Of a DNA stretch of 64,000 nt, positions 155 to 50,973 are shown piece by piece; the stretch's first letter is position 1, and the number at the start of each line of letters is the position of its first letter. The notes below the pieces were generated by a model that ran no database searches, had not been told where the DNA came from, and saw only the letters and a list, made by a program, of their open reading frames with translations. This stretch comes from Salinisphaera shabanensis E1L3A (lineage in GTDB: Bacteria > Pseudomonadota > Gammaproteobacteria > Nevskiales > Salinisphaeraceae): positions 1-64,000 of the forward strand of contig NZ_AFNV02000016.1 in the NCBI RefSeq assembly GCF_000215955.2, given 5' to 3'. A program made the translations under genes and the position numbers.

Positions 155-516
155 TGGTGGAGGCGGCGGGAATCGAACCCGCGTCCGCGGATTCTCGACC
201 CTCGGGTCTACATGCTTATTTCGTCTTTGATTGTCGGCGCGAGGTTACCCGACGAAAAGGGACAACCTGCGCGTATCTTCGTTTGCTCTTAACGGGTTGG
301 CCCGAAGCGGGGCCTTGCCGCGAGTCTGTAAGAGTCGATACCCGGATCCGGAAGCACAGACACTTACCGGGCGGGCACTAGCAGGCTTTTAAGCTGCTAG
401 AGCGTAGTTGTCGTCGTTCGCAACTAGCTTAGGTTGCAAATTGATTAACGAGGTTGATTTGCGACCTCGGCATGCACCTCGGGTTTTGACATCCGCGTCG
501 AAGCCATGTCGCCCCC
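155..516 (-). ncRNA. ssrA: Transfer-messenger RNA (tmRNA)
   Basis: tmRNA rescues ribosomes stalled on mRNAs without a stop codon and tags the unfinished peptide for proteolysis. On the minus strand the 5' end GGGGGCG pairs over 7 bp with CGCCTCC just before the 3' ACCA, forming the alanine-tRNA-like acceptor stem; the T-arm sequence GGTTCGATTCC is also present, and CCA is encoded. The resume frame reads GCG then AACGACGACAACTAC and on to TAA, giving the tag ANDDNYALAA, which has the usual AxxxxxALAA pattern. Length is 362 nt, normal for a one-piece tmRNA. Its protein partner gene smpB lies immediately upstream on the same strand. Confidence 0.97.
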
Positions 517-32915: not shown

Positions 32916-34400
<1,485 letters not shown>

Positions 34401-40945: not shown

Positions 40946-41022
40946 TGCGGGGTGGAGCAGTCTGGCAGCTCGTCGGGCTCATAACCCGAAGGTCGCAGGT
41001 TCGAATCCTGCCCCCGCTACCA
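40946..41022 (+). tRNA. metY: Initiator tRNA-fMet (anticodon CAT)
   Basis: A 77-nt tRNA with anticodon CAT. The first base (T) and base 72 (T) do not pair and the anticodon stem has three consecutive G-C pairs (GGG with CCC), the two marks of initiator tRNA. CCA is encoded. It precedes rimP-nusA as metY does in Escherichia coli. Confidence 0.98.
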
Positions 41023-47830: not shown

Positions 47831-49963
47831 GTGAGCAACGTCACCGTAACCAGTAAACAGACTTTCCAGTTCGGCGAACATGCGGTCACCCTCGAAACGG
47901 GTGAGATCGCACGTCAGGCCGATGGCGCCGTCAAGGTGAGCATGGGCGACACCGTGGTGCTCGTCACCGCAGTCGGCAAGAAAGAAGCCGCGCCGAACGC
48001 CGCCTTCTTCCCGCTGACCGTCAACTATCAGGAACGCACCTACGCCGGCGGCAAGATCCCGGGCGGCTTCTTCAAACGTGAAGGTCGTCCCGGCGAAAAG
48101 GAGACGCTGACCTGTCGCCTGATCGACCGTCCGATCCGCCCGCTGTTCCCGAAAGGCTTCTATAACGAAGTCCAGATCGTGGCCACCGTGATGTCGGTCG
48201 ACCCCGAAATTGATGCCGATATTCCGGCCATGATCGGCGCCTCGGCCGCGCTGAGTGTTGCCGGACTGCCCTTCGCCGGCCCGATCGGCGGCGCGCGCGT
48301 GGGCTATGCCAACGGCGAATACGTGCTCAACCCTAGCGCGACCCAGCTCAAGACCAGCGATCTGAACCTGGTCGTGGCCGGCACGTCGGACGCGGTACTG
48401 ATGGTGGAATCGGAAGCCAAGGAGCTGTCCGAGGAAATCATGCTCGGCGCGGTCCTGTTCGGCCATGAACAGATCCAGGCCGCCATCCAGGCGATCGAAG
48501 CCATGGTCGCCGAAGTCGGCAAGCCGAAATGGGACTGGCAGGCACCGGCCAAGGACGAGTCCCTGGCCGAAGCCGTCGAGCGCGTGGCCAAGAACGACGT
48601 CGTTGAGGCCTATCAGATCGCCGACAAGCAGGAGCGCGGCGCGCGCCTGGGCGAGATCAAGGAAGCCGTGGTGGCCGAGTTGGCGGCCGCCGAAGGCGAA
48701 GAGGGCTGGAGTCGCGACGACGTGAAGGGCGCGCTGGGTGCCCTCGAGAAGACCACCGTGCGTTCGCGCATTCTCGAAGGTCAGCCGCGTATCGACGGGC
48801 GCGACACGCGCACTGTGCGTGCGCTGGATATCAAGACGGGGGTGCTGCCGCGTACCCACGGCTCGGCGCTGTTCACGCGTGGCGAAACGCAGGCGCTGGT
48901 TGTCACCACGCTCGGCACCGGCCGCGATGCGCAGATGATCGACGCCGTCGAAGGCAAGTACGACGATCCGTTCATGCTGCACTACAACTTCCCGCCCTAC
49001 AGCGTGGGCGAAACCGGTTTCATGGGCAGCCCCAAGCGTCGTGAAATCGGCCACGGCAAGCTGGCCAAGCGCGCGATCATGGGCGTGTTGCCGGATCTGG
49101 AAAAGGAATTCCCCTACGTCATGCGCGTCGTGTCGGAAGTCACTGAATCCAACGGCTCCTCGTCCATGGCATCGGTGTGCGGCACCAGCCTTGCGCTGAT
49201 GGACGCCGGTGTGCCGGTCAAGGCACCGGTTGCCGGTGTCGCCATGGGCCTGATCAAGGAAGGCGACAAATTCGCCGTTCTGACCGATATTCTCGGTGAC
49301 GAAGATCATCTCGGCGACATGGACTTCAAGGTGGCCGGTTCCAACGACGGCATCACTGCCTTGCAGATGGATATCAAGATCGCCGGTATCACCCGCGAGA
49401 TCATGGAAGCCGCGCTGGAGCAGGCCAAGGAAGGTCGGCTGCATATCCTCGAGGTCATGGGCCAGGCGATCGACAAGCCGCGCCAGGAAGTCTCCGAGTG
49501 GGCGCCGCGCATCTTCACGATCAAGATCGATTCCGACAAGATCCGCGACGTCATCGGCAAGGGCGGTGCCACGATCCGCTCGATCACCGAGGAAACCGGT
49601 GCTTCGATCGATATCGAGGATGACGGCACGATCCACGTCGCCGCCGTCGATAAATCGGCGGCCGACATGGCGATCAAGCGTATCGAAGACATTACCCGCG
49701 ATATCGAAGCCGGCCAGGTCTATGAAGGCAAGGTCGTACGTATCGTCGACTTTGGTGCGTTCGTGAATCTGGTGCCGGGTCGTGACGGCCTCGTGCATAT
49801 TTCGCAGATTGCCGATCATCGTGTCGAGAAGGTCAGCGACGAGCTCTCCGAAGGCCAGACCGTCAAGGTCAAGGTTCTGGAAGTCGACCGTCAGGGCCGT
49901 GTGCGCCTGTCGATGAAGGAACTGGCCGAGAAAGCGTCGGAAGAGCCCAGCGAAGAGGGCTGA
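47831..49963 (+). CDS. pnp: Polyribonucleotide nucleotidyltransferase (PNPase)
   Basis: PNPase degrades RNA from the 3' end with phosphate and is part of the degradosome. The 710-residue protein has two RNase PH domains, the second with [14 protein letters not shown] and the catalytic region [22 protein letters not shown], then a KH domain ([21 protein letters not shown]) and an S1 domain ([30 protein letters not shown]). GTG at 47831 follows ACAGGA by a suitable distance; the frame continues upstream through the terminator and is not conserved there. It is the last gene of the nusA-to-pnp cluster. Confidence 0.98.
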
Positions 49964-50285: not shown

Positions 50286-50376
50286 AAAAAAGCCCCCTAG
50301 GGTAAGGGGGCAAGGTGCGAGAAAGGCCGTTAGGCCTTTCGGAGGAGATTCGGTATCAGCGTTTCCGCTGATGTTG
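50286..50376 (-). ncRNA. Predicted small RNA with an exposed anti-Shine-Dalgarno motif
   Basis: Read on the minus strand, the region holds three stem-loops in a row: a 7-bp stem with GAAA loop (50372-50355), an 8-bp stem GAAAGGCC/GGCCUUUC with loop UAAC (50340-50321), and a 7-bp C-rich/G-rich stem (50311-50292) running into a U-tract, a standard terminator. The linker between the first two stems contains UCUCCUCC, complementary to Shine-Dalgarno sequences and likely unpaired. A good promoter lies just upstream, predicting a transcript of about 91 nt. It starts about 67 bases past the phaR stop codon on the same strand and encodes no ORF. This is a prediction from structure; no known family was matched. 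Confidence 0.72.
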
Positions 50377-50382
50377 CGTTGC

Positions 50383-50410
50383 AGTATACCCGGCCTACGA
50401 CTTTAGTCAA
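50383..50410 (-). promoter_or_regulatory. Promoter of the predicted small RNA
   Basis: Minus-strand TTGACT (50410-50405), a 16-base spacer and TATACT (50388-50383) are close to the sigma-70 consensus. Transcription would start near 50376. Confidence 0.75.
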
Positions 50411-50442: not shown

Positions 50443-50973
50443 CTATTGGCCCGATTGCTTGTCTTGATCACTGTTATCGGCATCGGATTCGATAACTTGC
50501 GCGCTCGCATCATCTTTTTCTTTGCGCTTGAGGTTGGCCAGGAATTCGCGCCGTACGGTGCGCCAGATCGGAACCTGATACTGGGACAACTCTCGCAGGG
50601 CGGTCAGCGGGTTGTTCACATCCAGCAGTCGGCGCATACGATCCTTGAACTGCTGCTGCTGTTCGCTGAAGAACTCCAACGACAGTTCGAGATAGGAACT
50701 CACCGTGCTCTGCATGGAGTCGCCGTAGAAACGGATGATGTTACGCAACACCTCCGTGCGAAAGATCGGGTCGCCGCCTTCTTCCTGTTCACTGATGACC
50801 TGCAGAAGAATGCTGCGCGTGATGTCGTCGCCACTGCGCTTGTCGATCACCGTGAAATGCTCGCCCCGAATCACCAGCTGGCGGATATTTTCCAGCGTGA
50901 TGTAGCGGCTGACCTCGGTATCGTAGAGTCGCCGGTTCGGATACTTCTTGATGATGCGCGTGTTCTCACTCAT
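50443..50973 (-). CDS. phaR: Polyhydroxyalkanoate synthesis repressor PhaR
   Basis: PhaR represses phasin and other polyhydroxyalkanoate genes and is released by binding the polymer. The 176-residue protein has the N-terminal DNA-binding domain IIKKYPNRRLYDTEVSRYITLENIRQLV and the PHB-accumulation domain SILLQVISEQEEGGDPIF and LRNIIRFYGDSMQSTVSSYLE. The C-terminal third is glutamine-rich and then charged. No phaC, phaA or phasin gene is in the window, so targets lie elsewhere. A small-RNA promoter begins 33 bases after its stop. Confidence 0.94.
   Translation of the reverse strand: MSENTRIIKKYPNRRLYDTEVSRYITLENIRQLVIRGEHFTVIDKRSGDDITRSILLQVISEQEEGGDPIFRTEVLRNIIRFYGDSMQSTVSSYLELSLEFFSEQQQQFKDRMRRLLDVNNPLTALRELSQYQVPIWRTVRREFLANLKRKEKDDASAQVIESDADNSDQDKQSGQ

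Follow-up and report, generated by a model that had tools for sequence, protein, structure and literature searches.

The cuckoo RNAs of alphaproteobacteria have exposed CU-rich hairpin loops that cover ribosome-binding sites, and they are linked to a small-protein gene. The neisserial sibling small RNAs (sRNAs) NmsR also place exposed CU-rich stretches over ribosome-binding sites (PMC5688073). Rfam family RF02278 (Betaproteobacteria toxic sRNA, also double-hairpin RNAs or bdhR1, and related to S17) has a UCUCCUCC-type stretch at the 5' end, a hairpin and a terminator, and the loop of its first hairpin holds another CU-rich stretch. Several RF02278-type homologues are found per Burkholderia genome, growth became slower when the related ncS27 was overexpressed, and for B. 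cenocepacia the regulator of sRNA accumulation is given as unknown (PMC5688073). The targets named for S17 and the double-hairpin RNAs belong to transport and carbon metabolism (PMC11722255, PMC5688073). In S. meliloti, the repressor PhaR represses the sRNA MmgR (PMC8401924), whose promoter has a site bound by PhaR in an EMSA (PMC12542648). MmgR lowers phasin proteins and is tied to polymer storage (PMC8401924). Together with suhB it forms the alphaproteobacterial family RF00519, small terminator-ended RNAs with an unpaired CUCC between hairpins in the Rfam consensus. Phasin promoters are themselves freed when polymer granules draw off PhaR (PMC12542648, PMC12849132).

A predicted sRNA gene downstream of phaR

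The window analyzed here is a stretch of 64,000 nucleotides from Salinisphaera shabanensis E1L3A. On its minus strand, positions 50286-50410 carry a promoter and a predicted RNA that folds into three stem-loops, exposes UCUCCUCC and ends in a terminator. The locus is placed between phaR and the end of the pnp open reading frame at 49963 (Table 1). The encoded PhaR scores 161.8 bits with TIGR01848 (cut-off 109.45) and also matches PF07879 and PF05233. Elsewhere in the window are a tmRNA (155-516, minus strand) and two tRNA genes (32916-32997 and 40946-41019).

Table 1. Features of the sRNA locus in the window
Feature	Position	Strand	Basis or remark
-35 box TTGACT	50405..50410	-	sequence
-10 box TATACT	50383..50388	-	sequence; 16-nt spacer from the -35 box
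Putative PhaR operator ATACTGCAACGCAACAT	50371..50387	-	matches YGCRNYGCR (S. meliloti)
Operator core TGCAACGCA	50383-50375	-	shares positions with the -10 box and includes the predicted start
Predicted sRNA transcript, 92 nt	50286..50377	-	start inferred from the -10 box; fold, conservation
Stem-loop 1, variable 5' domain	50355..50372	-	fold; stem kept across the family, sequence not
Exposed anti-Shine-Dalgarno UCUCCUCC	50341..50348	-	linker between hairpins 1 and 2
Stem-loop 2, GAAAGGCC-UAAC-GGCCUUUC	50321..50340	-	fold, covariation
Conserved linker UCGCACCUUG, stem 2 to terminator	50311..50320	-	alignment A1; last G pairs within the terminator
Stem-loop 3 and U6 tail, intrinsic terminator	50286..50311 (hairpin 50311-50292)	-	fold, covariation
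phaR, PHA synthesis repressor	50443..50973	-	directly upstream of the sRNA, same strand

The promoter matches the sigma-70-type consensus at 10 of 12 positions. When folded, 50377-50286 gave -39.6 kcal/mol (z = -6.4), with none of 200 shuffled sequences equally good, and the mean unpaired probability of UCUCCUCC was 0.97. Consensus scans, which are weak evidence alone, gave two promoter-like sites in a 2-kb stretch (mean in shuffles 0.8) and three terminator-like sites (2.2 in shuffles). As 80 of the 85 genomes of the order carry the sRNA (see below), the element in the window stands above chance. The window thus almost certainly encodes a real sRNA.

Other roles for the locus were considered. 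A small peptide was rejected as the predicted RNA sequence contains no ATG, and an antisense role to pnp was rejected as the end of the pnp open reading frame falls outside the RNA. Stem 1 of the window RNA has a GGA; near relatives have GAACAC or AGACAC in its place, and a CsrA-type decoy was therefore dropped.

Comparison with described sRNAs

The sRNA region had no match at the gathering threshold in an Rfam scan of the window, and the window sequence and 20 relatives gave sub-threshold scores only. RF02278 was examined because it had the best such score among the relatives: 28.6 bits, with 10.8 bits for the window (gathering 50). For RF00519 (gathering 41) the corresponding values were 26.9 and 16.4 bits. 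The predicted RNA shares with RF02278 the order of CU-rich stretch, hairpin and terminator, and the family likewise reaches up to five copies per genome. In contrast to RF02278, the first of the two shared hairpins has no second CU-rich stretch: its loop is UAAC in the window, and no CU-rich loop was found there in the 32 sequences of alignment A1. The family also differs in its stem 2 sequence, GAAAGGCC/GGCCUUUC, and in a variable hairpin added upstream.

Like MmgR, the window RNA is small, ends in a terminator and has an unpaired CU-rich stretch between hairpins, and both have a PhaR-type operator in the promoter, in the window at the level of sequence. Unlike MmgR, the window family has one more conserved stem (stem 2) past the CU-rich linker, often occurs in several copies per genome and lies mostly beside phaR. 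A phasin target has been proposed for MmgR, whereas there is no sign of one for the window family (see below). The likeness to the cuckoo RNAs and NmsR is by description, with neither name among the Rfam matches of the window and its relatives, and we know of no PhaR control for either. By threshold the window sRNA stands outside RF02278 and RF00519; by analogy it would nevertheless work like both. The earlier note, made from the sequence of the window, knew of no family with this layout, a view that has to be revised given these two close families. The window sRNA belongs to a conserved and apparently undescribed family of a kind already known.

Distribution and conservation of the family

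A core-model search at E ≤ 0.001 found the sRNA in 80 of the 85 genomes of the order, with 127 copies in all; the order is taken to be Nevskiales from the names of the relatives. One copy is present in 47 genomes, two in 23, three in eight, and five in two. The core model had no match in G010, G014, G016, G075 and G077; in G077, a DNA search gave a weak hit at a distance of about 450 bases to phaR. The 21 phaR-relative loci are mostly from Salinisphaera, Solimonas, Hydrocarboniphaga, Panacagrimonas and Sinimarinibacterium, with one from a Nevskiales-labelled MAG. By DNA search, 92 of 100 relatives had a match at E ≤ 1, the weakest of these probably by chance. In a sample of the class, 12 of 369 genomes matched. 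Four are within the order; among the eight outside it, the matches in G185 and G268 are the weakest (28.5 and 28.9 bits) and doubtful. Three queries with these sRNAs against plasmid records gave no match, and phage records gave a single one, to 846 bases elsewhere in a 4.6-kb query.

The block from UCUCCUCC to the terminator can be aligned across the order, and UCUCCUCC is exact in 114 of the 127 copies. In the 91 copies that were folded, its median unpaired probability was 0.78, compared to 0.45 for the whole RNA. The 5' domain varies in sequence and length, giving predicted RNAs of 91-166 nt (median 123) in the same 91 copies, all of which have at least four base pairs in this domain. Covariation was counted on alignment A5, which holds 100 of the 127 loci plus a few weak or partial extra matches and was itself fitted to the given structure (model R2). 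Across its two 3' helices, 98.7% of cells are paired, compared to at most 66.5% when the structure is slid, and 13 of 16 pairs have two-sided changes. Stem 2 contributes five of eight such pairs (99.7% of cells paired) and the terminator stem eight of eight (97.7%). Model R1 has only four base pairs, its stems having been misplaced by the sequence alignment, and is mainly a sequence model.

These results bear out much of the earlier note. It had described a minus-strand promoter followed by three stem-loops, the last a terminator, without an open reading frame, and the sequence, the fold and the missing ATG agree. Its exposed anti-Shine-Dalgarno linker is both predicted to be unpaired and kept across most copies, and the stand-alone sRNA that it proposed has its own promoter and terminator and is conserved. 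Compensatory changes in the stems around a kept linker, which it had put forward as support, were also found, on the structure-fitted alignment.

Position relative to phaR

An sRNA copy lies just downstream of phaR on the same strand in 68 of the 81 phaR-bearing genomes of the order, the sRNA core being 424-723 bases beyond the segment that matches the PhaR DNA-binding domain. Of the 13 others, four (G014, G016, G075 and G077) have no sRNA match, three (G020, G042 and G044) have phaR and the sRNA on one contig at least 9.8 kb apart, and six have them on different contigs. In at least G025 and G046 both genes are well inside their contigs and so are truly separate. Outside the order, G121 and G195 also have phaR and the sRNA together, separated by about 0.9 kb, and these are the only phaR-positive genomes among the eight outside the order with an sRNA match.

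The placement in the 68 genomes would also be expected if the element were no more than an elaborate 3' end to the phaR mRNA, with stems added to a terminator and no function in trans. However, 47 of the 127 copies are not beside phaR, 91 have a conserved promoter of their own (83 with a properly spaced TTGAC), and the unpaired UCUCCUCC, for which a terminator has no use, belongs to the invariant part. We therefore consider this reading highly improbable compared to that of a separate sRNA.

A PhaR-type operator core in the sRNA promoter

In most copies, TGCANYGCAACA directly follows the -10 box. This element fits both the PhaR motif of S. meliloti, WNWD2NYGCRNYGCRNH2WNW (PMC12542648), and the R. 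eutropha consensus, YTKNTGCRNYGCANMAR (PMC12849132). The window operator has three mismatches to the R. eutropha 17-mer, just inside the limit used in PMC12849132. Within 130 nt, the core YGCRNYGCR was found at 102 of the 127 copies. The reversed motif was found at six, and 200 shuffles gave 11.3 on average and 20 at most, though these counts cover related sequences and the shuffles therefore yield no probabilities. The core is fused to the -10 box (TATA[CGT]-TGCRNYGCA) in 91 of 127 copies, compared to one of 6350 shuffled sequences. TTGAC precedes the -10 box by 16-18 nt in 83 of the 91 fused copies; the spacer is 17 nt in 74 of them and 16 nt in the window. Allowing up to three mismatches, the R. 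eutropha 17-mer was present at 98 of 127 copies and the reversed consensus at 11.

Beside phaR, 72 of 80 copies have the core, as do 30 of the 44 copies elsewhere in phaR-bearing genomes and none of the three in genomes lacking phaR. Counted by sRNA-bearing genome, the core is present in 74 of 77 with phaR and in zero of three without. It is missing from 25 of the 127 copies, and three genomes (G002, G005 and G007) encode phaR with the core at no sRNA copy. All six core-less genomes belong to the genus of the window, so they may go back to a single event or a few and need not count as six. Taken together, the operator core makes it very likely that PhaR controls the sRNA promoter. The earlier note had suggested a tie to storage polymers or stress from the adjacency of phaR and dksA. 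The first part, formerly a guess, is now well-supported at the sequence level as a link to a polymer sensor by the PhaR core and the synteny with phaR; the second, for which adjacency is the sole argument, was not sustained.

It could be argued that the family are real anti-Shine-Dalgarno sRNAs with a main control other than PhaR, TGCANYGCAACA being a feature of the start region or the site of another factor. Six genomes, of which three have phaR, retain the sRNA but not the core and are consistent with this, as are the other elements shared in the spacer, AAAGTCGTA in the genus of the window and GTAAGT in many others; the absence of the core from all three genomes without phaR is not, and the phasin and RF02278 loci below also argue against it.

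Further elements were seen in these promoters. At L189, L191, L194, L228 and L257, which represent five of the six core-less genomes in the genus of the window, the stretch separating the -35 box from the -10 box holds a palindrome, TACGAAAGTCGTA. The window promoter (50404-50396 region) has the right half of this palindrome, AAAGTCGTA, too, and a second regulator of the sRNA seems possible. Outside the genus, L156, L162, L187, L196 and others have GTAAGT or GTCAGTC in the promoter spacer. Four sibling sRNAs (L268, L269, L271 and L273) have the same core RNA with a TGTGACGCAGCCGTCA-like upstream element and no PhaR core, and perhaps respond to another signal.

Such siblings, with their different upstream regions, would fit a housekeeping anti-Shine-Dalgarno brake on growth that acts on many mRNAs, with polymer as one of several inputs and other signals acting through the siblings. 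The "toxic" in the name of RF02278, the slower growth on ncS27 overexpression (PMC5688073) and the presence of up to five copies per genome point the same way. Because at least one copy has the core in 74 of 77 sRNA-bearing phaR genomes, polymer state nevertheless looks like the main input, and a general growth brake is rather unlikely. We thus favor an sRNA family switched mainly by PhaR.

PhaR cores at phasin genes and at RF02278 loci

To the phasin family PF09361 there were 100 matches in 76 of 100 relatives. The short PF09361 genes comprise 37 open frames of at most 207 aa and L105, which was assigned manually once its true start had been recognized; of these 38, all but G018:C3 were read. 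A PhaR core is upstream of 32 of the 37, at least two cores in 30, and the reversed motif in five; five of the 37 genes lack the core. Some short PF09361 genes are outside the order (G095, G096, G098 and G099). In contrast, long PF09361 proteins had the core in seven of 41 and the reversed motif in five of 41. The core is fused to a -10-like hexamer in 14 of a set of 28 short phasin genes, and the L105 phasin promoter is also of the fused type (TTGACA-17-TATGAT, then the core). The PF09361 protein from the same genome as the window, L089, is long with no PhaR core upstream and was therefore not counted as a phasin.

The full S. meliloti-type motif occurs at five places in the genome of the window, compared to one for the reversed control. 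One is 45 nt upstream of the gene for a PhaC-like alpha/beta-hydrolase, L113 (TIGR01836 192.8 bits, under the cut-off of 365.3), with a divergent aldo/keto reductase gene opposite. Another precedes a gene for a cyoA-like oxidase subunit, L110. The full motif was also seen near a gene for a DUF4282 protein (L111).

The family of G306, inferred to be Burkholderiaceae from the Rfam family and score, has RF02278 in 51 of 60 genomes, 40 of them above the cut-off. We read 31 RF02278 loci, the 29 best-scoring new ones of 68 matches and two from a class-wide search, and all 31 genomes have phaR. Of the 31, 29 have a PhaR core in the 150 nt upstream, compared to five for the reversed motif, and in 27 the core is closely followed by a -10-like hexamer. 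In G457, one of the two without a core, the upstream sequence ends at the contig end. At these 27 loci the core is upstream of the hexamer and thus outside the RNA, which a feature of the start region would not explain, nor would it explain the same core at 32 of 37 short phasin genes. Control mainly by something other than PhaR is accordingly improbable, and PhaR remains the favored regulator.

In other groups, 28 RF02278-like loci had the core in three of 24 genomes without phaR and one of four with it; one of the core-bearing genomes without phaR, G293, is an 86%-complete assembly, and its congener G170 has both. The looser 17-mer was present in nine of these 28 loci and reversed in three. 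Outside the family of G306, phaR alone is therefore no predictor of the core. Among 369 genomes from the class, 102 had RF02278-like sRNAs with E ≤ 0.001; two pass the Rfam cut-off, so RF02278 as defined in Rfam looks too narrow.

Predicted targets and proposed mechanism

The pattern GGAGGAGA-N3-9-ATG has 12 sites in the genome of the window and the reversed pattern one. The control AAGGAGGT-N3-9-ATG had one site and gives no usable background rate. The list is small and from one genome, and at least three of the 12 (L346, L350 and L353) are not credible starts. Four sites precede genes for periplasmic solute-binding proteins (L343, L347, L351 and L352). The other five credible sites are at genes for an OmpW-like protein, an aldehyde dehydrogenase, a class II aldolase, a ureidoglycolate lyase and an unassigned protein. 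The list resembles the targets named for S17 and the double-hairpin RNAs, and is no more than a lead. A phasin was rejected as a direct target as GGAGGAGA is absent within 130 nt before the domain in all 28 short phasin genes searched, and the direct sRNA-phasin step of MmgR was therefore not carried over. With good confidence, the sRNA would block ribosome sites; that uptake genes are its main targets is more tentative and somewhat doubtful.

We propose that the family are trans-acting sRNAs, switched by PhaR, that probably repress translation by covering ribosome-binding sites. Without polyhydroxyalkanoate, PhaR would occupy the operator and shut the sRNA promoter. As granules form, PhaR would be titrated, by analogy to the phasin promoters, and the sRNA made along with the phasins. 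It would then pair with GGAGGAGA-type ribosome sites through UCUCCUCC, perhaps after being cut to a form of about 65 nt starting near UCUCCUCC, which is suggested because that part alone is conserved in sequence. In the most speculative step, uptake and catabolic genes would be the targets and the sRNA a brake under carbon sufficiency.

Whether this circuit is an old and general one in polymer-storing Proteobacteria, with granules titrating PhaR to release the sibling anti-Shine-Dalgarno sRNAs MmgR, RF02278 and the window family, we rate at even chances. If so, the "toxic" sRNAs of RF02278 would be storage-state regulators. The PhaR link offers a cause for their expression, and in the window family it would give PhaR a post-transcriptional arm in a gammaproteobacterial order. 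This raises the question of stored carbon turning off the translation of uptake genes, which bears on bioplastic-producing bacteria. A literature search, with thin coverage of subscription journals, found no paper tying PhaR to RF02278 and none with both "Salinisphaera" and "sRNA".

sRNA copies within a phasin-like transcript

In G195, phaR is followed by PhaR cores around TTGACA-17-TATGAT, an Ala/Lys-rich open reading frame of 110 aa and then the sRNA. At this locus (L150), which adjoins phaR, the open reading frame is at 1059-1391 and the sRNA at 1501-1570, which puts the sRNA at the 3' end of this short gene. The frame reached E 0.001 with no family of Pfam or NCBIfam, giving weak matches only, and is thus called phasin-like by composition and place. 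The same open reading frame end is present in G311 (L149), an 88%-complete assembly in which phaR was not found. G121 has a similar promoter with a fused core between phaR and the sRNA. These arrangements hint at a former joint transcript of the sRNA and a phasin gene, from which the stand-alone sRNA may derive.
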